A stretch of DNA of 50,842 nt, taken from a virus. The position numbers and the translations under genes were made by a program. Positions within the stretch are counted from its first letter, which is position 1. Each line of letters starts with the position of its first letter. Where the stretch lies: the IMG/VR virus record IMGVR_UViG_3300036770_007509, positions 1 through 50,842 of that record; one strand, 5' to 3'. The notes beneath the pieces are model-generated. The model was given only the letters and a program-made list of their open reading frames with translations. It did not search any database and had not been told where the DNA came from. Positions 40,296-48,211 of the stretch are shown here, piece after piece.

Positions 40296-40305
40296 GCGAT
40301 CAAGA

Positions 40306-40334
40306 TTGACAGCAAGTCCAAGATCGTGTAATGT
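40306..40334 (+). promoter_or_regulatory. Promoter-like elements before the tRNA array
   Basis: TTGACA (40306-40311), 17 bases, TAATGT (40329-40334), followed 11 bases later by the first tRNA. The -35 is perfect; the -10 is weak. Confidence 0.5.
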
Positions 40335-40344
40335 ATAAAGTATT

Positions 40345-40421
40345 GCTCCGGTAGCTCAGCGGTTAGTAGCAGGCGACTCATAATCGCTTGGTCGGGGGTT
40401 CGAATCCCTCCCGGAGCACCA
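40345..40421 (+). tRNA. tRNA-Met (anticodon CAT), elongator type
   Basis: Full cloverleaf: acceptor GCTCCGG/CCGGAGC, anticodon loop CTCATAA, T-loop TTCGAAT and encoded CCA. The first base pair is G1-C72, so it is an elongator or isoleucine (lysidine) tRNA. Six T follow the CCA. Confidence 0.93.
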
Positions 40422-40448
40422 TTTTTTGTTTGTTAGGCCACATCACGG

Positions 40449-40477
40449 TTGACAAGATATAAATAAACTCATACAAT
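40449..40477 (+). promoter_or_regulatory. Promoter of a short leader ORF
   Basis: TTGACA (40449-40454), 17 bases, TACAAT (40472-40477). An exact TATAAATA late box (40458-40465) lies in the spacer, so this site may be read by either polymerase form. The start falls near the ATG at 40485. Confidence 0.65.
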
Positions 40478-40484
40478 AGCTACT

Positions 40485-40613
40485 ATGATGACTCAAACGC
40501 AATCACTCGTAAACAAAATGCACGCATGTCCCAAATTGGGTGGCCTGTCAACATGGCCGCAGATTGGTTATACCCGTGTGATTGAGAACGGTGATAGTGG
40601 AGGGTCCAGGTAG
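40485..40613 (+). CDS. 42-residue ORF in an attenuator-like leader
   Basis: A 42-residue frame (MMTQTQSLVNKMHACPKL at the start, ending GDSGGSR) placed directly after the promoter, leaderless by spacing. Its TAG (40611-40613) lies inside the first arm of a hairpin that competes with a terminator. No homologue recognised. It might be a regulatory leader peptide; a plain small gene is the alternative. Confidence 0.4.
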   Translation: MMTQTQSLVNKMHACPKLGGLSTWPQIGYTRVIENGDSGGSR

Positions 40614-40648
40614 ATCTAGCAACAAGCAACATCAAGCTACCGGACCCT
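40601..40648 (+). promoter_or_regulatory. Antiterminator-like hairpin overlapping the terminator
   Basis: Bases 40601-40613 pair with 40637-40648 (12 pairs, one bulged A at 40608), around a 23-base loop. The 3' arm shares 40645-40648 with the terminator stem, so the two structures exclude each other. The ORF stop codon sits in the 5' arm, where a terminating ribosome would block this hairpin. Confidence 0.5.
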
Positions 40649-40673
40649 GGACTTAGACACTCCAGGGTTTTTT
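40645..40673 (+). terminator. Rho-independent terminator
   Basis: Stem CCCTGGA (40645-40651) and TCCAGGG (40661-40667) with a 9-base loop, followed by six T (40668-40673). A textbook terminator located between the 42-residue ORF and the structured RNA region. Confidence 0.8.
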
Positions 40674-40841
40674 GTTTTGTACGCCAGGCAACGAGGGCCA
40701 GTCAGCGTAAAATAAAAAGACGAACGGGCGGAGTCTGGGATGACCTCTGTGGCGAGAACACAGACAGTAAGATCAGCAGGTGGGAGACGGTCCCACTGTG
40801 GTTGACCACAAAATACACTTGCTGTACTCGGTGTTTTGTGG

Positions 40842-40860
40842 CACCATATCGAAGCACATT
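40842..40860 (+). repeat. Direct repeat copy 1 (second copy 41031-41049)
   Basis: 19 bases, CACCATATCGAAGCACATT, match 41031-41049 at 17 positions (two adjacent mismatches). Both copies are complementary to the middle strand 40935-40953, so the middle strand can pair with either. Confidence 0.75.
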
Positions 40861-41030
40861 ACCGAGGCCTCTGCGAAGTGTCCCGGGCACACAGTAGCAA
40901 TCAATACCGAAGGCAGCAGATGGGTTCGCTGCATGTAATGTGTTTCGATATGGCGATGCGGTTTGTATCGCAAGTGGAGGAGTTTGCGAGAAGGCTCAGC
41001 ACAAGGTGAGACAGCTGGACTCACAACCGC

Positions 41031-41049
41031 CACCATATCTCAGCACATT
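41031..41049 (+). repeat. Direct repeat copy 2
   Basis: CACCATATCTCAGCACATT; partner of the copy at 40842. It can instead fold locally (TATCTC/GAGATA) or pair with GATATGG at 41101-41107, which includes the first bases of tRNA-Tyr. Confidence 0.7.
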
Positions 41050-41105
41050 GGAGATAAGCAGGAACGGTTCCGGAACCGGTCGCCTCGTCCAGTGTGTTGG
41101 GATAT

Positions 41106-41191
41106 GGGTAGCGAGCAGAACAGGTTACTGCACTGGACTGTAAATCCAGCGCCTTGCGGCATACGGGGTTCGAGGCCCTGGCTACCCACCA
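41106..41191 (+). tRNA. tRNA-Tyr (anticodon GTA)
   Basis: Class II tRNA with a long variable arm. Acceptor GGGTAGC/GCTACCC, anticodon arm CTGGA-CTGTAAA-TCCAG, T-loop TTCGAGG, encoded CCA. Confidence 0.93.
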
Positions 41192-41196
41192 TACCA

Positions 41197-41272
41197 GCAC
41201 CCATCGTCTAGAGGCCTAGGACATCACCCTTTCACGGTGAGTACACCGGTTCGAATCCGGTTGGGTGTGCCA
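41197..41272 (+). tRNA. tRNA-Glu (anticodon TTC)
   Basis: Acceptor GCACCCA/TGGGTGT (G1-U72 wobble), anticodon arm TCACC-CTTTCAC-GGTGA, T-loop TTCGAAT, discriminator G, encoded CCA. The following 100 bases (41273-41373) hold inverted repeats CCTAGC/GCTAGG and AAGCGGGA/TCCCGCTT but no gene. Confidence 0.92.
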
Positions 41273-41373
41273 AAAACACAAGTCCTAGCGACAGTGCTCA
41301 ACTGGCGCGCAAGCCGACCGATCTGGCTAGGCCAAGCGGGACCAGCAACCTCCCGCTTGATGAGAAAAAAATT

Positions 41374-41448
41374 GGTGCCAAAGTGTTCATGGACGCACAT
41401 CAGCCTGTCACGCTGAAAGAAGGGGATCGTTACCCCTTGGTACCGCCA
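41374..41448 (+). tRNA. tRNA-Asp (anticodon GTC) with unusual T-loop
   Basis: Acceptor GGTGCCA/TGGTACC, anticodon arm TCAGC-CTGTCAC-GCTGA, T-stem AGGGG/CCCCT, encoded CCA. T-loop is ATCGTTA, with A at 54 and T at 58 in place of the standard T54 and A58. Confidence 0.85.
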
Positions 41449-41454
41449 AGTCAT

Positions 41455-41529
41455 GCCCTTGTAGCTCAGTGGTAGAGCTCTCGCCTTGTAAGCGAGGGGT
41501 CGGGAGTTCGAATCTCTCCGGGGGCACCA
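41455..41529 (+). tRNA. tRNA-Thr (anticodon TGT)
   Basis: Acceptor GCCCTTG/CGGGGGC (two G-U pairs), anticodon arm CTCGC-CTTGTAA-GCGAG, standard T-loop TTCGAAT, encoded CCA. Confidence 0.93.
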
Positions 41530-41534
41530 ATTAT

Positions 41535-41610
41535 TGTCCAGTAGCTCAGTAGGTAGAGCAACGGTCTGTTAAACCGTGGGTCGCTAGTTCGAGCCTAGCC
41601 TGGACAGCCA
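41535..41610 (+). tRNA. tRNA-Asn (anticodon GTT)
   Basis: Acceptor TGTCCAG/CTGGACA, anticodon arm ACGGT-CTGTTAA-ACCGT, T-loop TTCGAGC, discriminator G, encoded CCA. Confidence 0.93.
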
Positions 41611-41616
41611 AAATAT

Positions 41617-41692
41617 TCCCCGCTAGTTCATGTTGGCAGAACGTCGGTCTCCAAAACCGAAGAGGGCGGATCGTCACCGTCGCGGGGAGCCA
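41617..41692 (+). tRNA. tRNA-Trp (anticodon CCA) with unusual T-loop
   Basis: Acceptor TCCCCGC/GCGGGGA, anticodon arm TCGGT-CTCCAAA-ACCGA, discriminator G, encoded CCA. T-stem GGCGG/CCGTC closes the loop ATCGTCA, again A54 and T58. Confidence 0.87.
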
Positions 41693-41707
41693 ATTACGCA
41701 AGATCAT

Positions 41708-41784
41708 AGTGAGGTGGCCGAGTGGTCCAAGGCCGCTGCCTGCAAAGCAGATGTTCGTGGGTTCGAATCCCACCCTCACTTCCA
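41708..41784 (+). tRNA. tRNA-Cys (anticodon GCA)
   Basis: Acceptor AGTGAGG/CCTCACT with discriminator T, a tRNA-Cys hallmark; anticodon arm GCTGC-CTGCAAA-GCAGA, T-loop TTCGAAT, encoded CCA. Confidence 0.9.
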
Positions 41785-41788
41785 CCTC

Positions 41789-41862
41789 GGGGGATTAGTT
41801 AAATGGGATAACATTGGCTTTGCAAGCCGAGATTGAGAGTTCGATTCTCTCATCCTCCACCA
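41789..41862 (+). tRNA. tRNA-Ala (anticodon TGC)
   Basis: Acceptor GGGGGAT/ATCCTCC (one G-U), anticodon arm TTGGC-TTTGCAA-GCCGA, T-loop TTCGATT, encoded CCA. The last 11 bases (ATCCTCCACCA) recur at the end of the degenerate tRNA at 42306. Confidence 0.92.
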
Positions 41863-41904
41863 TATTTTTGTAGAGTGATGCTAAATACAGCAGAGGTCTA
41901 CAAA

Positions 41905-42291
41905 ATGGAAATATTTACATGTTTATCGTGCGGTAAAGAAAATGAAATGAAAAGAAATCATTTCAACAAGTATTGCAATAACCAATGCCAAAACGATCAT
42001 AGGTTAATAGCAGAAACTTTACCAAAGTTTGAAAGTGGTGCTCTTTCTAATAGACGGACTCTGCACAGGGTATTAAAATATCTACATGGATATAGATGTG
42101 TTGTATGTGGAAATCCAGGCGAGTATAATAACAAACCTTTGGCACTACAATTAGATCATATCGACGGTAATGCTGGCAATAATATTCCTGAAAACTTAAG
42201 ATTGTTATGTCCTAACTGCCATAGCCAAACAGATACTTTTGTTGCAAAGAATAAAGGCAACGGTAGACAGGCAAGAGGTTTAGCACGATAA
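41905..42291 (+). CDS. HNH homing endonuclease
   Basis: A 128-residue protein with two zinc-binding Cys pairs at the N-terminus (FTCLSCGKENE; CNNQCQND), then CVVCGNPG, LQLDHIDGNAGNNIPENLRLL and CPNCHSQTD, the HNH nuclease core. Free-standing HNH genes spread by cutting cognate DNA lacking them. ATG at 41905 follows CAGAGG; an upstream ATG at 41878 is in frame. It is AT-rich relative to flanks and lies between two tRNA genes, so it is likely an inserted mobile gene. Confidence 0.88.
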   Translation: MEIFTCLSCGKENEMKRNHFNKYCNNQCQNDHRLIAETLPKFESGALSNRRTLHRVLKYLHGYRCVVCGNPGEYNNKPLALQLDHIDGNAGNNIPENLRLLCPNCHSQTDTFVAKNKGNGRQARGLAR

Positions 42292-42305
42292 TACCACCAA
42301 AATCT

Positions 42306-42379
42306 GCGGGTATGATGTAATGGTAGCCTACTTGCTTGCCATGCAAGATGCGCCGGTTCGACCCCGATATCCTCCACCA
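42306..42379 (+). pseudogene. Degenerate or chimeric tRNA-Gly (anticodon GCC)
   Basis: 5' half like tRNA-Gly: acceptor strand GCGGGTA, anticodon arm CTTGC-TTGCCAT-GCAAG. The 3' acceptor strand is ATCCTCC plus ACCA, which does not pair with the 5' strand (three mismatches), and the T-stem also has one mismatch. The 3' end is identical to that of tRNA-Ala at 41789. Probably a recombinant pseudogene next to the HNH gene; an intact tRNA-Gly(GCC) exists at 42705. Confidence 0.65.
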
Positions 42380-42384
42380 TTCTA

Positions 42385-42460
42385 CTCGGATTGGGATAAT
42401 AGGGAGTCCACCTCGTTTGGGGCGAGGAAGGTGCAGGTTCGAGTCCTGTGTCCGAGACCA
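42385..42460 (+). tRNA. tRNA-Pro (anticodon TGG)
   Basis: Acceptor CTCGGAT/GTCCGAG, anticodon arm CCTCG-TTTGGGG-CGAGG, T-loop TTCGAGT, encoded CCA. The 86 bases after it hold hairpins GCCAG/CTGGC and ACCCGCC/GGCGGGT and no gene. Confidence 0.92.
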
Positions 42461-42546
42461 ATTGCACAGCAACGCAGACACGGCATTGTAGGCCAGGCCT
42501 CTTGCTGGCAAGCTGATACCCGCCCTGCACCGGCGGGTCACTCGGC

Positions 42547-42621
42547 ATCACCGTGGTGAAATGAAGATCACACAGCCCTGCGAGGGCTGAGTACCAGGTT
42601 TGATTCCTGGCGGTGGTACCA
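42547..42621 (+). tRNA. tRNA-Arg (anticodon GCG)
   Basis: Acceptor ATCACCG/CGGTGGT, anticodon arm CAGCC-CTGCGAG-GGCTG, T-arm CCAGG-TTTGATT-CCTGG, encoded CCA. GCG is a rare anticodon for CGC/CGU, as most bacteria use ACG modified to ICG. Confidence 0.8.
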
Positions 42622-42625
42622 CCCG

Positions 42626-42699
42626 GCCCGATTAGCTCAATGGTAGAGCTCGCGACCGATAATCGCGTGACGGTGGATCGTAACCATCATCGGATACCA
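42626..42699 (+). tRNA. tRNA-Ile (anticodon GAT), atypical
   Basis: Acceptor GCCCGAT/ATCGGAT with a C2-A71 mismatch and G1-U72, anticodon arm CGCGA-CCGATAA-TCGCG in which the near-universal U33 is C, and T-loop ATCGTAA (A54, U58). Encoded CCA. It may be functional or degenerating. Confidence 0.7.
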
Positions 42700-42704
42700 C
42701 ACCA

Positions 42705-42779
42705 GCGGGTGTAGCTCAGAGGCAGAGCGCGACATTGCCAATGTCGAGGTCGAGATTTCGAAATTCTTCACCCGCTCCA
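42705..42779 (+). tRNA. tRNA-Gly (anticodon GCC)
   Basis: Acceptor GCGGGTG/CACCCGC, anticodon arm CGACA-TTGCCAA-TGTCG, T-loop TTCGAAA, discriminator T, encoded CCA. T-stem has one T-T mismatch. Confidence 0.88.
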
Positions 42780-42792
42780 GATTCAAAAGGCC

Positions 42793-42821
42793 TTGACCTC
42801 TAGTGGAGATCACTGTAACAT
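42793..42821 (+). promoter_or_regulatory. Promoter-like elements before tRNA-Gly(TCC)
   Basis: TTGACC (42793-42798), 17 bases, TAACAT (42816-42821). Good -35, modest -10. It would start a transcript 15-20 bases upstream of the tRNA at 42845. Confidence 0.5.
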
Positions 42822-42844
42822 ATAGACACAACGTCAAGGTTGTC

Positions 42845-42918
42845 GCGGCGGTAGTTCAATGGTAGAATCAGAGCCTTCCAAGCTCCGGACGCGGGTTCGA
42901 TTCCCGCTCGCCGCTCCA
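42845..42918 (+). tRNA. tRNA-Gly (anticodon TCC)
   Basis: Acceptor GCGGCGG/TCGCCGC, anticodon arm AGAGC-CTTCCAA-GCTCC, T-arm GCGGG-TTCGATT-CCCGC, discriminator T, encoded CCA. It is followed by a small gene with AAGAGGA. Confidence 0.92.
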
Positions 42919-42933
42919 TCTCAAGAGGACAAT

Positions 42934-43098
42934 ATGCAAGAAAAGCAAAGTTTTTTAGATATGATCAAGGCAGCACAGGCCAAGAAGAAAGCGTCTCTGG
43001 CACCGGATGCCAAGGAATTGGAATCTGTCAAGGCCAAATTTTCTAATGGTCCTGTGGTCAATCGGCCCATGAAGAAATCTTCAGGTAGAGGCAGATAG
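42934..43098 (+). CDS. Conserved small basic phage protein (54 residues)
   Basis: MQEKQSFLDMIKAAQAKKKA at the start and NRPMKKSSGRGR at the end. The SFLDxxKxAQ start and KxSSGRGR end are typical of a small protein found in many marine T4-like phages. Basic and probably disordered at the tail. The ATG follows AGAGGACAAT. Function unknown. Confidence 0.7.
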   Translation: MQEKQSFLDMIKAAQAKKKASLAPDAKELESVKAKFSNGPVVNRPMKKSSGRGR

Positions 43099-43121
43099 TT
43101 TTGTTCCGGATACTCAAGACA

Positions 43122-43326
43122 TATATCATGGGCTAAGGCGTGAGCGAAAGAATGCCAACCCCAACTGCCAGGGGAGGACACCACCCTGCACCGCTGCTAC
43201 CCTAGATCGGGCGCTGGACCGTGGCTGGTCTGGTTTGAGCATGTTGCAGGGGACATCGACGCTGGGCCCATAGCCCAGAGAATGGTCGGGTCTCAAACAC
43301 CAGGGCAGTGCCTTAGCCCATGATAT
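43122..43326 (+). ncRNA. Putative structured RNA abutting tRNA-Arg(TCT)
   Basis: A perfect 17-base inverted repeat (43123-43139 with 43310-43326; two further G-U pairs extend it to 19) encloses 166 bases with no gene. Inside are CCCC/GGGG (43159-43174), CTGGGC/GCCCAG (43262-43278), CCCTGCA/TGCAGGG (43184-43190 with 43245-43251), and a 10-pair helix between 43230-43239 and 43292-43303. The last two would cross, forming a pseudoknot. The 3' arm ends on the base immediately before the tRNA, so RNase P processing of the tRNA would free the RNA 3' end. No known family could be assigned. Confidence 0.6.
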
Positions 43327-43401
43327 CTGGCCGTCGTTCAACGGACAGGACAGCAGTCTTCTAAACTGCGAATGGGGGTTCGATTCCCTCCGGCCGGGCC
43401 A
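43327..43401 (+). tRNA. tRNA-Arg (anticodon TCT)
   Basis: Acceptor CTGGCCG/CGGCCGG, anticodon arm GCAGT-CTTCTAA-ACTGC, T-loop TTCGATT, discriminator G, encoded CCA. It directly abuts the structured RNA upstream. Confidence 0.92.
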
Positions 43402-43444
43402 GTAATAACCTTATTGCTAAAAGTGCATACAGATTTGTCACGAT

Positions 43445-43455
43445 TGTGATATAAT
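43445..43455 (+). promoter_or_regulatory. Extended -10 promoter
   Basis: TGATATAAT is an extended -10 (TGn plus TATAAT at 43450-43455); no -35 is at standard spacing. The next ATG (43461) is six bases downstream, so its mRNA would be leaderless. Confidence 0.55.
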
Positions 43456-43460
43456 ACTGT

Positions 43461-43598
43461 ATGGATACAAAATCAACCCGTTTACAATTCTGTTGCAGCC
43501 TAGGCTGCCTGGTGCTCTTGGCCGTGGCACTCGTAGTCACGGGAGAAGTATTAGAATGCGTCATGTTTGTTAATCCCCACGAGACATGGTGTGATTAA
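43461..43598 (+). CDS. Small membrane protein (45 residues)
   Basis: A 45-residue product: basic start (MDTKSTRLQF), one hydrophobic helix (SLGCLVLLAVALVVTGEVL) and a short polar tail (NPHETWCD). Four Cys lie at or near the helix. The ATG lies six bases after a perfect TATAAT. It could be a holin-like, antiholin-like or superinfection-exclusion membrane peptide; no homologue recognised. Confidence 0.5.
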   Translation: MDTKSTRLQFCCSLGCLVLLAVALVVTGEVLECVMFVNPHETWCD

Positions 43599-43600
43599 AT

Positions 43601-43678
43601 TCGGCGGTGTAGCATGGTGGATCTAATGCAGCCGCTTCATACGCGGAAAATCGGAACTCGAACCCGATACCCTAGAGC
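43601..43678 (+). pseudogene. Degenerate tRNA-like sequence (CAT anticodon loop)
   Basis: CCGC-TTCATAC-GCGG forms an anticodon-like arm with CAT, and ATCGG/CCGAT a T-stem-like pair around a 9-base loop. No pairing acceptor stem or CCA is present. Probably a decayed tRNA on the left edge of the oxygenase gene; alternatively chance structure. Confidence 0.4.
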
Positions 43679-44365
43679 ATGTATAAGTATATGAGAGGTT
43701 TGATGGCACCAATTACAAACCAGTTGGTCCGGGTCGGTCGCTTGACTCCAAAATTTCAAGGAATAAAAGTGGAAATTATTGTACATAATTCAAAGTCACT
43801 TTCATCGCCCAACGATGTATACGACCTCTTTACTGTCCCTCTTTGGGAAGTTGAAATAGTATCACCTGTATTGATTGATCCTGACTTCAACAAGGCACTG
43901 GAAGTCGATGCTGACTATGAAATTAATCATGGACATGGAAATCACTTGCGTTCTAAATACACAGGTGAGAGTATCGTTAGAAGTTTTTCGAATGTATCTC
44001 AAAAGGATCGTTTGCTTGAGATTGCGCTGCAGCATCCGTTTGCAAAGCGGAGATTTTTTCATCCAATCTCATATTATCAAGAACACGCAAGTTGGTTTTC
44101 GGCGATACTTAAAGATGAGCCCGGCTTTAGGATGGCGCCTCATATTGACAACAGTCACATTATGATTCAAATGATAGTGAATCTGTTACAGGACAACGAT
44201 ACATCAACTGTTTTTTTTAATATTTTTGATCAACAGCAACCAGTATATCAGGCCCCGAGGAAACAAAATCATGGTATAGTGTTTTTGAATACACCAGGTT
44301 CAATACATACTATCACCAGCGTTACAAAAAAACGGTACATATGGTATGCAGGAGTTTTGATCTAA
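43679..44365 (+). CDS. 2OG-Fe(II) oxygenase-like protein inserted among tRNAs
   Basis: A 228-residue AT-rich gene. FRMAPHIDNSHIMIQMIVNL has the HxD metal pair; GIVFLNTPGSIHTITSVTKK gives the distal His and the 2OG-binding basic residue, with YIWYAGVLI as final strand, all as in prolyl-hydroxylase-like 2OG oxygenases. It stands in the tRNA array between a tRNA remnant (43601-43678) and a tRNA 3' fragment (44366-44414). Its base composition differs from the tRNA flanks, suggesting it moved in. Start ATG 43679; ATG 43691 and 43703 also fit. Confidence 0.8.
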   Translation: MYKYMRGLMAPITNQLVRVGRLTPKFQGIKVEIIVHNSKSLSSPNDVYDLFTVPLWEVEIVSPVLIDPDFNKALEVDADYEINHGHGNHLRSKYTGESIVRSFSNVSQKDRLLEIALQHPFAKRRFFHPISYYQEHASWFSAILKDEPGFRMAPHIDNSHIMIQMIVNLLQDNDTSTVFFNIFDQQQPVYQAPRKQNHGIVFLNTPGSIHTITSVTKKRYIWYAGVLI

Positions 44366-44414
44366 GGAGGCAAGGCACAGAGATGCGGGGATTCGATTCC
44401 TCCGTATTCCACCA
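44366..44414 (+). pseudogene. 3' fragment of a tRNA
   Basis: A T-arm-like CGGGG/CTCCG with ATTCGATTC loop, then a TATTCC acceptor strand and ACCA. No matching 5' half (GGAATA) lies upstream; the oxygenase stop codon directly precedes it. It looks like a tRNA cut by insertion of the oxygenase gene or by deletion. Confidence 0.5.
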
Positions 44415-44420
44415 TGTAAC

Positions 44421-44508
44421 GGAAGGGTCCCATAATGGTATTGGAGCAGATTGCTAATCTGTCGGCTGTGCAAACGGCTTCTGGGTTCGAGTCCCAGTCC
44501 TTCCACCA
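44421..44508 (+). tRNA. tRNA-Ser (anticodon GCT)
   Basis: Class II tRNA: acceptor GGAAGGG/TCCTTCC, anticodon arm GCAGA-TTGCTAA-TCTGT, long variable arm, T-loop TTCGAGT, encoded CCA. Confidence 0.92.
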
Positions 44509-44537
44509 AGAGCTGATTAAATACACCGGGGGGTATC

Positions 44538-45011
44538 ATGGCTCGCATCAATCTCAACCAAGTGGTAGACTACATTAACTCTACCGGTCCGGCCACCCGT
44601 ATCTATTTGGGTGCGGATTCCATCCGCTACAAGGTCAACCGCGAGTGGTGGGCCGAGTACACGGTGGCTGTGGTGGTGCACCTGGATGGCCGACATGGAT
44701 GCAGGATATTTGGTGATGTCACACAGGAACGCGACTATGACCAACGTGCGGATCGTCCCACCCTGCGGCTCATGAACGAAGTGTATCGTGTATCGGAAAT
44801 GTACTTGGCCCTGGCACCACGTGTGCTGGACCGCGAAATCGAAGTGCATCTTGACATCAATCCCGCAGAAATGGCCGGCTCCAGCTGTGTGATCTCACAG
44901 GCCATTGGCTATATACGCGGTACCTGCAATGTGGTTCCGTTCGTGAAACCGGACGCTTTTGCGGCATCGTACGCGGCAGACCGTATCGCACGCTACGGTA
45001 CCACTGATTGA
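44538..45011 (+). CDS. YkuK/DUF458-like RNase H-fold protein
   Basis: A 157-residue protein with RIYLGADSIRYKVN, VAVVVHLDGRHGCRIFGDVTQERDYD and EIEVHLDINPAEM, three strands each ending in Asp or Glu as in the RNase H-like DUF458/YkuK family. Activity is not established for the family. Starts 15 bases after an ATTAAATA box. Downstream gene is a phosphoesterase. Confidence 0.75.
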   Translation: MARINLNQVVDYINSTGPATRIYLGADSIRYKVNREWWAEYTVAVVVHLDGRHGCRIFGDVTQERDYDQRADRPTLRLMNEVYRVSEMYLALAPRVLDREIEVHLDINPAEMAGSSCVISQAIGYIRGTCNVVPFVKPDAFAASYAADRIARYGTTD

Positions 45012-45057
45012 TCAGAAACTCACAGGTTGTTATTATACAAAATAAAGAAAGGAGGCG

Positions 45058-45663
45058 ATGATGCCCGCAGTATTTCTAGTATCAGACACGCATTTTGGAC
45101 ACGCTGGCGTTTGCCGCTTCACTCGCGCGGACGGTGTTACCAAACTAAGACCTTGGGACGATGCCCAGGAGATGGACGAAGCCATGATCTCTGCCTGGAA
45201 CGACCGTGTGAGGCCCAACGACAAAGTGTATCACCTCGGCGATGTAGTAATCAATCGCAAGGCCTTGAGTACACTTGCCCGCCTCAACGGCGACAAGGTC
45301 TTGATCCGTGGCAATCATGATATTTTCCGTGACACTGAGTACGGACAGTACTTTCGTGAATTGCGGGCCTACCATGTCATGAACGGACTTATTTTAAGCC
45401 ATATTCCCGTCCACGAAGCAAGTCTTGGTAGGTTTGGTTGTAATATACACGGACACTTACACGCCAACAGAGTTATGAAGGCGAGAGGTGTTGATGCTAG
45501 AACTGGTGAAATCTTATATAGCGATGAGATAGATCCGAGATACTGGTGTGCCTGTGTTGAACAAACAGATTTCGCTCCTATCCTTTTTGAAGATGCTTTA
45601 AAGAGGATAGCGGAACAAGGTGGCACCGTAGGCTTTAAGAATGGAAACGGTCCCACTATGTAA
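45058..45663 (+). CDS. Metallophosphoesterase
   Basis: A 201-residue calcineurin-like phosphoesterase. Motifs in order: LVSDTHFGHAG (DxH), VYHLGDVVINRK (GDxxx), IRGNHDIFRD (GNHD), LSHIPVHEA and NIHGHLHANRV (GHxH). All five metal-binding blocks are present. Could hydrolyse phosphodiesters or nucleotides, or trim RNA ends. Strong Shine-Dalgarno (AAAGGAGG); ATG at 45058 or 45061. Confidence 0.9.
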   Translation: MMPAVFLVSDTHFGHAGVCRFTRADGVTKLRPWDDAQEMDEAMISAWNDRVRPNDKVYHLGDVVINRKALSTLARLNGDKVLIRGNHDIFRDTEYGQYFRELRAYHVMNGLILSHIPVHEASLGRFGCNIHGHLHANRVMKARGVDARTGEILYSDEIDPRYWCACVEQTDFAPILFEDALKRIAEQGGTVGFKNGNGPTM

Positions 45664-45698
45664 TGTTTTACATTTTGGGCCGTGAAAGATAAGCCATG

Positions 45699-45706
45699 GA
45701 TAAATA
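45699..45706 (+). promoter_or_regulatory. Late-promoter-like box GATAAATA
   Basis: GATAAATA lies in the gap after the phosphoesterase, 46 bases upstream of the sigma70-type promoter of the TctC operon. Confidence 0.35.
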
Positions 45707-45751
45707 TTTTTGCAACGCCGGGTTCTTCCGACGTCGGAGTAAAATAGACGC

Positions 45752-45788
45752 TTGACATAGAGATGTCTTTACTAGTATAATATACTAG
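45752..45788 (+). promoter_or_regulatory. Promoter with overlapping palindromic operator
   Basis: TTGACA (45752-45757), 18 bases, TATAAT (45776-45781). The -10 lies inside a perfect 17-base inverted repeat, CTAGTATA-A-TATACTAG (45772-45788), a classical repressor or activator site. A second palindrome (45804-45819, TGTGGAT/ATCCACA) is downstream. It drives the 40-residue ORF, the PP-loop protein and TctC. A possible 18-residue ORF starts at 45790. Confidence 0.65.
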
Positions 45789-45850
45789 AATGCCTACCGT
45801 ATATGTGGATTCATCCACAAGCACTTATAAATTTCACCTTTGGTAAATGT

Positions 45851-45973
45851 ATGTCTTTTTTATTTAAAACGATAGAGTCCCTACCTGTACCTCCTCTTGA
45901 AATTAGTTTTGAAGACAACCCCTGGGATAACGACAATGCAATCAAAAAATCAGCAGGACACTATTCTCGATGA
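45851..45973 (+). CDS. 40-residue protein upstream of the PP-loop gene
   Basis: ATG at 45851 gives 40 residues (MSFLFKTIESLPVPPLEIS, then EDNPWDNDNAIKKSAGHYSR). Its TGA overlaps the next ATG (ATGA at 45970), typical of real coupled genes here. AT-rich. No homologue recognised. No Shine-Dalgarno is evident. Confidence 0.45.
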   Translation: MSFLFKTIESLPVPPLEISFEDNPWDNDNAIKKSAGHYSR

Positions 45974-47103
45974 ACACCAAATTTGGTTTTTATAAAATAG
46001 GAGATTTTGTTACCTTGAGTAAGATAGAAGCTATTGAATTACACAGGCGAACAAAAATACATCCACAATGGATTTTCAACGATGAAGCATTTTCTGCATG
46101 TGATTGGTCAGTTGAACCTTCCGTGTCACTCGAAGAAATTTACAAACGCCGTGCATTGCAGTTGAGAGAAAAGTATGATTATATTGTGTTGTTTTTTAGT
46201 GGTGGAGCCGACAGCACTAATGTCTTACATAGTTTTATAAACAATAACATCCATGTAGATGAGTTGTTATGTTATCATACCAAATCAGTTGCGGGCGAAC
46301 ACGGAGTTGGCGAGCAAGAAATATTTCGAGTCGCCGTGCCTACGGCCAAAAGAGCACAAGAAATTAATCCCAATATCAAAATTAGAGAAATAGATTTAAC
46401 AAAAAATATTTTAGAATTTTATCAAGATAAAAAAAATAAATTTGATCTGCTGTATGACAAAAATGATTATTGGAGTCCAAATCATATGGGATTGACCTCA
46501 TTGAGTGACCATATCCCCGAATGGAAACAGTTGGCGGATAAGGGAAAACGCATTTGCCTTTTGCGCGGAGCCGATAAACCACAGATTTTTTATGATGACC
46601 AAGGTTGGCATGTAAAATTTCTCGATATTCTAGTCGGCAATTCTATAGACATCAAAAGTGTAAGGGAAAAAAATCTCTGGTTTGATCACGAATTTTTTTA
46701 TTGGACTCCAGACCTGCCAGATGTTATTATTAAGCAAGCCCATGTTGTTAAACACTTTCTACAAACAGCCAAGTCTACTAGTCCAGGATTGTCTTTGCAA
46801 CCCAGTTTTTTTCAAGCAAAAACAATCAATGGAAAAAAATACTATATGACTTGTGACCAGTTACATCGACTGATTTACCCAACCTGGGATATCAACACCT
46901 TTACCATGGGTAAACACTCGACTCCGCTGGCCAGTCCCAGAGATTCATGGTTTTTTAGTAAAACTGAATTTGCAAAAGAGTCTGAAATCGCAAGAATGAA
47001 CTTGCAGGCTGTCAAACAGATCGTGGGTGATTATTGGTTAAATGACCGCGATCATATCACTGCTGGTCTCAAAGGCATGTGGTCAAAATCTTATTATTTC
47101 TAA
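45970..47103 (+). CDS. PP-loop ATPase-like protein
   Basis: A 377-residue protein with the PP-loop ATP pyrophosphatase motif FFSGGADSTNVL (Ser77-Ser82), as in NadE, QueC, asparagine synthetase and tRNA sulfurtransferase families. The rest (GVGEQEIFRVAV, SPNHMGLTSLSDHIPEWK, LLRGADKPQIFYDDQGWHVK) is not one of those families by sight; there is no QueC zinc Cys cluster. It probably adenylates a carboxyl or carbonyl group, then amidates or thiolates it. It shares an operon with TctC and is AT-rich. Substrate unknown. Confidence 0.7.
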   Translation: MNTKFGFYKIGDFVTLSKIEAIELHRRTKIHPQWIFNDEAFSACDWSVEPSVSLEEIYKRRALQLREKYDYIVLFFSGGADSTNVLHSFINNNIHVDELLCYHTKSVAGEHGVGEQEIFRVAVPTAKRAQEINPNIKIREIDLTKNILEFYQDKKNKFDLLYDKNDYWSPNHMGLTSLSDHIPEWKQLADKGKRICLLRGADKPQIFYDDQGWHVKFLDILVGNSIDIKSVREKNLWFDHEFFYWTPDLPDVIIKQAHVVKHFLQTAKSTSPGLSLQPSFFQAKTINGKKYYMTCDQLHRLIYPTWDINTFTMGKHSTPLASPRDSWFFSKTEFAKESEIARMNLQAVKQIVGDYWLNDRDHITAGLKGMWSKSYYF

Positions 47104-47112
47104 GGGGAAAAA

Positions 47113-48036
47113 ATGTTCAAACAAATTGTTTTATCTATTTTATTATCTGTAGCTTGTTACTCAGCAGCAGCCACAGACTTGATCCGTATGATTGTGCCTA
47201 CTCCTCCTGGAGGGGCAACTGACATCTTGGCCAAGGCTTGGTCTGAACAACTTAATCAAGTCTTGCACAAAGACAAAATCAAAATTGTTTTAGAACACAG
47301 GCCAGGTGCCGGTGGGGCAGTGGCTGCTCGACATGTGGCCGACAGCGATCCTGATCAACTAGTTTTGCTCCTGACAAGTAATTCTATAGTTATCAATAGT
47401 GTGGTTACTAAACCTGGTTGGGTCTTGCATCGTGATTTAACTGCGATTGGTTATGCCGGAACAACTCCAATGCTGGTTATCACAGGAATAAACAACAATA
47501 ATGTATTTGGTTACAAGGACATCTTGGATAAATCTAAAAAACTCACAATGGCTCATTCTGGAGCCGGGTCTGGCAACTGGTTGGCTGCTGTTTCACTAAG
47601 GGAAAAAACAAAAGCCGCATACAACCTGATCGGATACAAAGGAAATGCCCCAGCATTGATTGATGTGATGGGCAATCATGTTGACATGAGCGTAGATTTT
47701 TATACCACTAGTTTTGATTTGATAAAAAGCAGTAAAATCCGACCTGTATTAACGTTGACTGATCAAAGACTGGATAATTTGCCTGATGTGCCTGCTTATG
47801 GTGAACTAGGTCTTGGTCCTTTTCCTACTCCCATATGGTGGGGTATATTTTCCAACAATGGCAAAAAACACAGACACTTAGAAAAAATTTATCAAGCGAT
47901 TAATGTTAGTTATGACAACCCCGAGTTCTTGTTGACTCTAAGTGACCGTGGATTCCAACTACGGAAAAAAGATTTCAGATCCTATGTAGATAAACAGATT
48001 AAAATCTTACAGGGCATGGGATTACAACATGAATAG
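47113..48036 (+). CDS. tctC: Tripartite tricarboxylate transporter substrate-binding protein TctC
   Basis: A 307-residue Bug/TctC family protein. A Sec signal peptide (MFKQIVLSILLSVACYSAAA) precedes TDLIRMIVPTPPGGATDILA. KIVLEHRPGAGGAVAARHVA and NLPDVPAYGELGLG are family blocks. It binds a carboxylic acid in the periplasm and delivers it to TctA/B. Preceded by AAGGGGAA. The gene is AT-rich and follows the PP-loop gene by nine bases. It pairs with TctA at 37759. Confidence 0.93.
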   Translation: MFKQIVLSILLSVACYSAAATDLIRMIVPTPPGGATDILAKAWSEQLNQVLHKDKIKIVLEHRPGAGGAVAARHVADSDPDQLVLLLTSNSIVINSVVTKPGWVLHRDLTAIGYAGTTPMLVITGINNNNVFGYKDILDKSKKLTMAHSGAGSGNWLAAVSLREKTKAAYNLIGYKGNAPALIDVMGNHVDMSVDFYTTSFDLIKSSKIRPVLTLTDQRLDNLPDVPAYGELGLGPFPTPIWWGIFSNNGKKHRHLEKIYQAINVSYDNPEFLLTLSDRGFQLRKKDFRSYVDKQIKILQGMGLQHE

Positions 48037-48039
48037 ATA

Positions 48040-48083
48040 CCTTGTGGATTTATAATGCACAAGGATTCTTGTATAACACAAGG
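48040..48083 (+). other. Inverted repeats after tctC
   Basis: CCTTGTG (48040-48046) can pair with CACAAGG at 48058-48064 or with CACAAGG at 48077-48083. No T-run follows, so this is not a standard terminator; it may protect mRNA ends or switch between two folds. Confidence 0.4.
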
Positions 48084-48094
48084 TTCCTGCTTGG

Positions 48095-48123
48095 TTGACC
48101 ACTAACTCCTTTTCAGCTATAGT
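48095..48123 (+). promoter_or_regulatory. Sigma70-type promoter for the second tRNA locus
   Basis: TTGACC (48095-48100), 17 bases, TATAGT (48118-48123), 14 bases before the tRNA. Shares the GGTTGACCAC -35 with 50456. Confidence 0.75.
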
Positions 48124-48137
48124 AGTCATATGACAGT

Positions 48138-48211
48138 CGCGGGATGTTGAAATGGCATCATGTAGGTCTCATAAGCCTTCGTTCCTGGTTCGAATCCAGG
48201 TCCCGCTACCA
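48138..48211 (+). tRNA. Initiator-like tRNA-Met (anticodon CAT) with C1-U72 mismatch
   Basis: Acceptor strands CGCGGGA and TCCCGCT pair at six of seven positions; the first is a C-T (C1-U72) mismatch. Initiator tRNAs are marked by an unpaired 1-72 (C1-A72 in E. coli), which is needed for formylation. Anticodon arm TAGGT-CTCATAA-GCCTT, T-arm CCTGG-TTCGAAT-CCAGG, encoded CCA. The three G-C pairs of the initiator anticodon stem are only partly present, so initiator identity is likely but not certain. Confidence 0.85.

Follow-up and report, generated by a model that had tools for sequence, protein, structure and literature searches.

At the head of phage tRNA arrays we found a compact pseudoknotted RNA, here called B, which almost certainly represents a family absent from Rfam and not described before; both the family and its position at the array head can be regarded as secure. 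In the window (the whole stretch of DNA that was analysed, a 50.8-kb IMG/VR virus record encoding a phage DNA polymerase, a jumbo-phage-related exonuclease and a tRNA array) B occupies positions 40680-40779 of the plus strand, and the array, identified by a tRNA search and starting with tRNA-Tyr, extends from 41106 to 48211 on the same strand. The proteins of the window have their relatives on contigs from metagenomes, among which several measure 100-364 kb. An earlier note on this DNA had suggested that 40679-41105 contains a large structured RNA beside the tRNAs and that no gene explains the stretch. Both suggestions were borne out: the RNA is conserved in homologues, the fold energy of 40679-41105 has a z value of -5.2 with none of 100 shuffled sequences being equally stable, the minus-strand frames are broken in the homologous locus L109, and coding was rejected on either strand. 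Three things escaped the note: the core with its pseudoknot (40680-40779), the fixed place of this core at the head of the array, and the attenuator-like switch at 40449-40673.

The assignment of B rests on a covariance model (R1) built from 32 sequences with the window excluded, on covariation and on tests of the pseudoknot. The order of its elements is as follows: the 5' strand of S1 (AGTG-like), the P2 hairpin GGN-AACGAGG-NCC, the 5' strand of S2, the 3' strand of S1 (CACT-like), an A-rich loop, the 3' strand of S2, AACGGGCGGA, P3, an internal loop, and P4 with the 7-nt loop GCGRYAA. On the plus strand of the window, P1/S1 is formed by 40680-84 and 40705-09, P2 by 40687-89 and 40697-99 enclosing the loop AACGAGG (40690-96), and the pseudoknot S2 by 40701-03 and 40719-21; the invariant linker ACGGGCGGA lies at 40724-32, and it is followed by two stacked stems, P3 (approximately 40735-37/40777-79) and P4 (40746-51/40759-64, loop GCGAGAA). 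Many of the invariant bases of B are unpaired. The complementarity of one stretch, ACGGGCGG, to the 16S decoding region was considered and dropped, because by simple counting chance alone should give roughly one 8-nt match to 16S among the conserved unpaired stretches. Two further plus-strand hairpins follow the core. P5 (GTGGGA/TCCCAC, 40780-40796) was seen in the fold of the window, and many B loci have a GTTGGGG..CCCCAAC version of it. P6 (CCACAAAATAC/GTGTTTTGTGG, 40806-40841) is replaced in some relatives by a promoter-like TTGACC-17-TATAAT, as read from the sequences of the window, L109, L264, L023 and L099.

Homologous loci of the region were found by blastn. The signature AACGAGGNCC...ACGGGCGGA (40690-40732 in the window) was present in 17 loci collected early, two of which are the window itself, and in at least 120 IMG/VR stretches. 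In the window, R1 scored 62.7 bits (E ~2e-11) over 40686-40778. It gave a single match per locus and also recovered B from loci that the signature scan had not supplied and that were fetched through similarity of their proteins alone (L107, L053, L155, L079, L066, L133 and L159). In total, about 105 distinct phage loci carry B. The earlier note had named a lack of compensatory changes in homologues as grounds for abandoning the structure; such changes proved abundant in B as well as in the long hairpins described below. In 86 distinct aligned rows, 571 cells of B were double-compensated, as compared with 171 after shuffling and 68-96 after sliding, 91% of the cells were paired (56% shuffled, 33-38% slid), and the covariation score was 0.726 against 0.161 for shuffled data, figures which are inflated because the alignment was fitted to the model's own structure. 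The strand-swap test of S2 and a MAFFT alignment are independent of the structure-fitted alignment. In the swap test, which is unbiased, the S2 strands of the same locus scored 10.5 and strands combined from different loci 2.8; S2 occurs as 46 different strand pairs, and that of the window has only 3 bp. The same test applied to S1 gave 12.5 for own and 11.4 for swapped strands, thus S1 alone is weakly informative, since its sequence hardly varies. The third pair of P2 is kept paired in 81 of 81 sequences, as AT, TA, CG, GC or GT, and P3 is found as CAGGA/TCCTG, CTAGT/ACTAG, CCGGA/TCCGG, CTGTA/TACAG and other variants.

The covariance search against Rfam that the earlier note had called for yielded only tRNAs when the window was scored at gathering thresholds. 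At E<=10 the leader (40296-41110) gave no credible match, and with the relatives included nothing credible besides tRNA and tmRNA was among the matches listed. Copies of B appear to be confined to metagenomic phages, as judged by blastn of the window or the B consensus against 50,697 records of isolated phages, a search which found no match and is weak for so short an RNA. A pattern search of bacterial genomes gave no real B among the at least 119 matches listed, and the literature searched, mostly papers outside subscription journals, holds no description of it. The locus L116, a relative that lacks B, encodes a tmRNA of the betaproteobacterial type, which is a hint at the host.

The position of B was surveyed in 54 loci in which B is flanked on either side by 1.5 kb or more. 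A tRNA gene on the same strand lies within 1.5 kb downstream in all 54, at a median distance of 296 nt from the start of B, and at least four tRNAs are located within 5 kb in 53 of them, whereas 39 have no tRNA within 3 kb upstream. Summed over the 54 loci, there are 763 tRNAs downstream (5 kb) and 27 upstream (3 kb), and the opposite strand has none. As first tRNA of the array, 17 different isotypes occur, which indicates that the content of the arrays is reshuffled while B stays first. Exactly one copy of B was found in each whole record that holds it (20 of the 25 records searched, plus 6 of 8). Several tRNA-rich relatives lack B, for example the records of L163 (20 tRNAs) and L139 (26 tRNAs), thus B is not essential. 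Within the array of the window, a free-standing HNH endonuclease ORF of 152 aa (41833-42291) is situated between tRNA genes, and a tRNA-like gene at 42306-42375 was accepted by Rfam (31 bits) without being called by ARAGORN.

Between B and the first tRNA the window contains two long plus-strand hairpins, referred to as H. H1 is the 19-bp helix described in the earlier note (40844-40862/40935-40953, 5' arm CCATATCGAAGCACATTAC); it has one G.U pair, closes a 72-nt domain and covaries in homologues. H2, also of 19 bp, is formed by 41033-41051 and 41089-41107, and its last two G residues are the first two nucleotides of tRNA-Tyr. The near-copy of the helix arm reported at 41031-41049 does exist, 2 nt further downstream as the 5' arm of H2, and its predicted pairing over the start of tRNA-Tyr does reach the first two nucleotides of that gene, although the partner is the full 19-nt arm 41089-41107 and not a short motif. 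The note had proposed that the middle strand (40935-40953) can pair with either copy and thereby act as a strand-exchange switch. The exchanged pairing with 41033-41051 is possible, with a duplex energy of -19.0 kcal/mol, but the hairpins that the two copies form on their own are about 10 kcal/mol better (-29.0 for H1 and -30.4 for H2, likewise duplex energies), both are present as separate hairpins in the lowest-energy fold, and homologues often have a single H or independent, self-paired ones. We therefore consider such a switch very improbable.

An H hairpin follows B in 76 of 80 B loci, with arms of 15-29 nt and mostly within about 200 nt. When double changes were counted (excluding 17 loci whose arm lacks the anchor motif), 208 were found, compared with 54 in shuffled data (maximum 77), and 92.8% of positions were paired against 72.7%. 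Amid this otherwise compensating sequence the stretch AARCAC/GTGYTT is nearly constant. The 3' arm of H ends between -6 and +12 nt from the first tRNA in 17 of 71 loci. H hairpins are found between tRNAs as well. Their outer end can then coincide with the CCA of the tRNA before (L196 4197-4306, L280) or with the first GG of the tRNA after (L422). The interior of H1 is 77-78% identical to the between-tRNA hairpins of L196 and L280, and H2 shares 83% identity with one of the H type that is located after tRNA-Tyr in L105. By these resemblances the H hairpins look like movable modules which may have been duplicated in the window, and such a duplication would account for the near-copy of the helix arm. 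The 79-nt stretch between H1 and H2 (40954-41032) has no homologue in any fetched locus; it ends with GCCACCA leading into H2, resembling a decayed tRNA 3' end. Some H interiors (L245 1-130, minus strand; L065 3570-3670; L422 220-345) resemble a tRNA in decay whose T-arm (GGTTCGAATCC) is still intact and whose acceptor stem is greatly lengthened. A conserved, apparently structured stretch of about 200-250 nt separates H from tRNA-Lys in L065 (3690-3920) and L023 (3760-4000); the L065 stretch has no Rfam match in that locus, and it has a likely paralogue after tRNA-Met (L065 4205-4410). In L116 (8100-8560 and 17079-17432) the array head has two H hairpins and an inverted repeat of about 22 bp enclosing some 170 nt, besides the tmRNA of this locus mentioned above. 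The anticodon region of a tRNA-Lys-like gene in L421 (385-635, minus strand) carries an insertion of about 230 nt, a candidate group I intron.

A search for a promoter at constant spacing ahead of B found none; the place is taken by a small ORF or a terminator. In the window, the plus-strand sequence at 40449-40673 appears to constitute an attenuator-like switch. It begins with a sigma-70-type promoter (TTGACA at 40449-40454, a 17-nt spacer with TATAAATA, TACAAT at 40472-40477), which places the start of transcription approximately at the ATG (40485) of a 42-aa leader ORF (40485-40613), thus the ORF is apparently leaderless; many homologous loci show the layout TTGAC-TAAATA-TAYAAT-ATG ahead of their leader ORF. 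Region 1 (AGGGTCC, 40601-40607), in the last codons of the ORF, can pair with region 2 (GGACCCT, 40642-40648), which, by pairing scores and energies, is common to the antiterminator and to the intrinsic terminator (CCCTGGA 40645-40651/TCCAGGG 40661-40667 followed by TTTTTT, altogether 40645-40673). The two hairpins are mutually exclusive and nearly equal in stability (-20.5 kcal/mol for the antiterminator state and -21.7 for the terminator state in the window), and until the 3' arm of the terminator is made only the antiterminator can form. The terminator hairpin is present in 58 loci. Of 74 loci, 61 have a leader ORF of about 30-60 aa (class II) that ends about 50 nt ahead of a T-run terminator, and all 61 of these ORFs encode a Trp, which is also present in the ORF of the window. 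Pairing of the ORF end with the 5' arm of the terminator scored 17.5 for the terminator of the same locus, 13.5 for those of other loci and 5.8 for shuffled sequences, and exceeded the 95th percentile of shuffles in 39 of 60 cases. The coding signature of class II is weak (472/452/557 differences at the three codon positions, a slight third-position excess), thus part of its conservation may be at the RNA level. The arrangement recalls the leader-peptide attenuators of the trp and his type, which likewise combine a short ORF, base pairing between the end of this ORF and the first strand of an intrinsic terminator, and alternative structures. The differences are that a phage tRNA array would be controlled here, that the ORF is apparently leaderless, that each class II ORF has one conserved Trp and no run of Trp codons, and that the switch has two states, not four regions.

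A second kind of ORF (class I, about 50-58 aa, HxLTxEQxxxLIxxKxxRA; for example L251 3903-4076) stops 14-36 nt upstream of the loop AACGAGG in some 45 loci and is absent from the window. A coding signature is seen in it (274/237/508), and the protein is predicted to form two helices (pLDDT 88.7). Comparison with Pfam, PHROG and PDB revealed no family of weight, and no convincing relatives were found in isolated phages.

How could B act? There is about an even chance, in our judgement, that B-H is a cis-acting leader which lets transcription and processing pass through the long untranslated tRNA array. Transcription would start at the sigma-70-type promoter and proceed through the short ORF. 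A ribosome at the end of the ORF would cover or hide region 1, and the terminator would form; if translation stalled or failed, regions 1 and 2 would pair and the polymerase would read on. The read-through transcript would yield B and then the H hairpin or hairpins, with the 3' arm reaching up to the first tRNA, and B-H would equip the transcription complex (by antitermination or protection from Rho) and/or the processing machinery for a kilobases-long tRNA precursor, much as the rrn leader does in cis for rRNA. The structure, its conservation, the single copy, the position at the array head and the alternative pairings of the leader were established in silico; that the RNA is transcribed, that translation attenuates it and that B-H acts on the array in cis is what we infer from them. 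The cis role is favoured by two considerations, namely that B stays first while the array content is reshuffled, and that a multi-kb untranslated transcript needs protection from termination. In rrn operons such protection is provided through boxA. L116, which has no B, carries at its array head a sigma-70 promoter and, after it, an rrn boxA of consensus sequence (GCTCTTTAACAA). Since just 2 of 88 array heads have a boxA, not above the number expected by chance, the L116 case is an anecdote and no proof, and a general substitution of B by rrn boxA was rejected. B itself contains no boxA and resembles no known antiterminator.

The single copy and the compact, self-contained fold of B also suit a trans-acting RNA, and this explanation fits nearly as well as the cis leader. 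B-H would then be a processed, stable non-coding RNA merely sharing the transcript of the tRNAs, perhaps acting with the protein of about 50 aa encoded just upstream in most relatives; the 3' end of B-H would be released when RNase P cuts the first tRNA, and protection would come from the H helix. The many invariant unpaired bases, the end of the H 3' arm close to the first tRNA and the conserved two-helix protein ending shortly before the AACGAGG loop all agree with this. The gene of such an RNA could however sit anywhere in the array or outside it, yet B is almost always first, and the window keeps B though the gene of the partner protein is absent. We hold the trans role to be a serious possibility with a probability well short of even. 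A riboswitch-like element, sensing a ligand or tRNA and controlling the array, would explain the compact pseudoknot, the invariant loops and the location upstream of a regulated operon, but B is followed by no switchable terminator or start site and the terminator lies upstream of it, which makes this reading improbable. We give slightly less credit still to a self-cleaving ribozyme separating the mRNA part of the transcript from the tRNA part. A pseudoknot adjoining phage tRNAs is suggestive, and the theta ribozymes of gut phages, pseudoknotted small RNAs beside phage tRNAs, provide a precedent (PMC10879173). These are located at the 3' ends of tRNAs, whereas B is 5' of the first tRNA; their HDV-like nested double pseudoknot, with cleavage at the tRNA 3' end, has the order P1a-P2a-P3-P1b-P4-P2b, unlike that of B (S1a-P2 hairpin-S2a-S1b-S2b), where a hairpin precedes the second pseudoknot strand, and no Rfam ribozyme family matched.

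The earlier note also saw a resemblance to GOLLD and ROOL, large structured non-coding RNAs of phages often found near tRNA islands (PMC12286853). B shares with them the structure and the proximity to phage tRNAs. This is where the likeness ends: no sequence or covariance-model match to them was found in the window or the leader, nor among the matches listed for 12 related loci (the best 150 of 222 rows), the fold is different and fixed at the array head, and the conserved core is about 100 nt followed by variable hairpins, whereas GOLLD members often exceed 800 nt. The several hundred nucleotides with a universally conserved 3' domain that characterize GOLLD were not found in B, and membership of this type seems to us extremely unlikely.

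Parallels are found also among cis-acting leaders. Like an rrn leader, the region has a sigma-70 promoter, stands at the head of a long untranslated stable-RNA operon and has a long helix before the first mature RNA. Unlike an rrn leader, the region has a leader ORF and a terminator after its promoter, the B pseudoknot is unrelated to boxB-boxA-boxC, and boxA (TGCTCTTTAACA) had no match with three or fewer mismatches between 40422 and 41105. The put RNAs of phage HK022 and the EAR antiterminator RNA are structured RNAs which act in cis from the beginning of a transcript requiring elongation over a long distance. B-H is likewise structured and located at the start of a transcript to be elongated far, and would likewise act in cis, but its fold is different, and no Rfam match of this kind was obtained at E<=10 in 40296-41110. 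The way in which B works may resemble that of rrn leaders or put/EAR elements, but on the features compared B belongs to neither class.

Although phages have been known for decades to carry tRNA arrays, what these are for is still debated. In the literature searched, again mostly outside subscription journals, we found no study on how phages turn these arrays on. According to a recent proposal, the arrays make up for tRNAs of the host that defence nucleases have destroyed (PMC10264068). It is tempting to combine this with our findings: as a new cis-acting RNA class of large phages, dedicated to stable-RNA (tRNA) operons and joined to a translation-sensing attenuator, B and the switch could be a sensor of tRNA depletion, an idea which we put forward tentatively and think rather less probable than the trans role. 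When host translation falters, for example because defence nucleases destroy host tRNAs, the leader ORF would remain unfinished, the terminator would be bypassed, and B would license the whole phage tRNA set.

In about 100 large freshwater phage sequences, then, an RNA class absent from Rfam and an attenuator-like switch head the tRNA operons. B adds a structured RNA family whose pseudoknot and invariant unpaired motifs allow the partner to be sought. The RNA and the switch at the array head make the control that a phage exerts over its own tRNA supply directly testable and offer a first handle on it. If the sensor interpretation is true, the tRNA set of the phage would be switched on by tRNA depletion.
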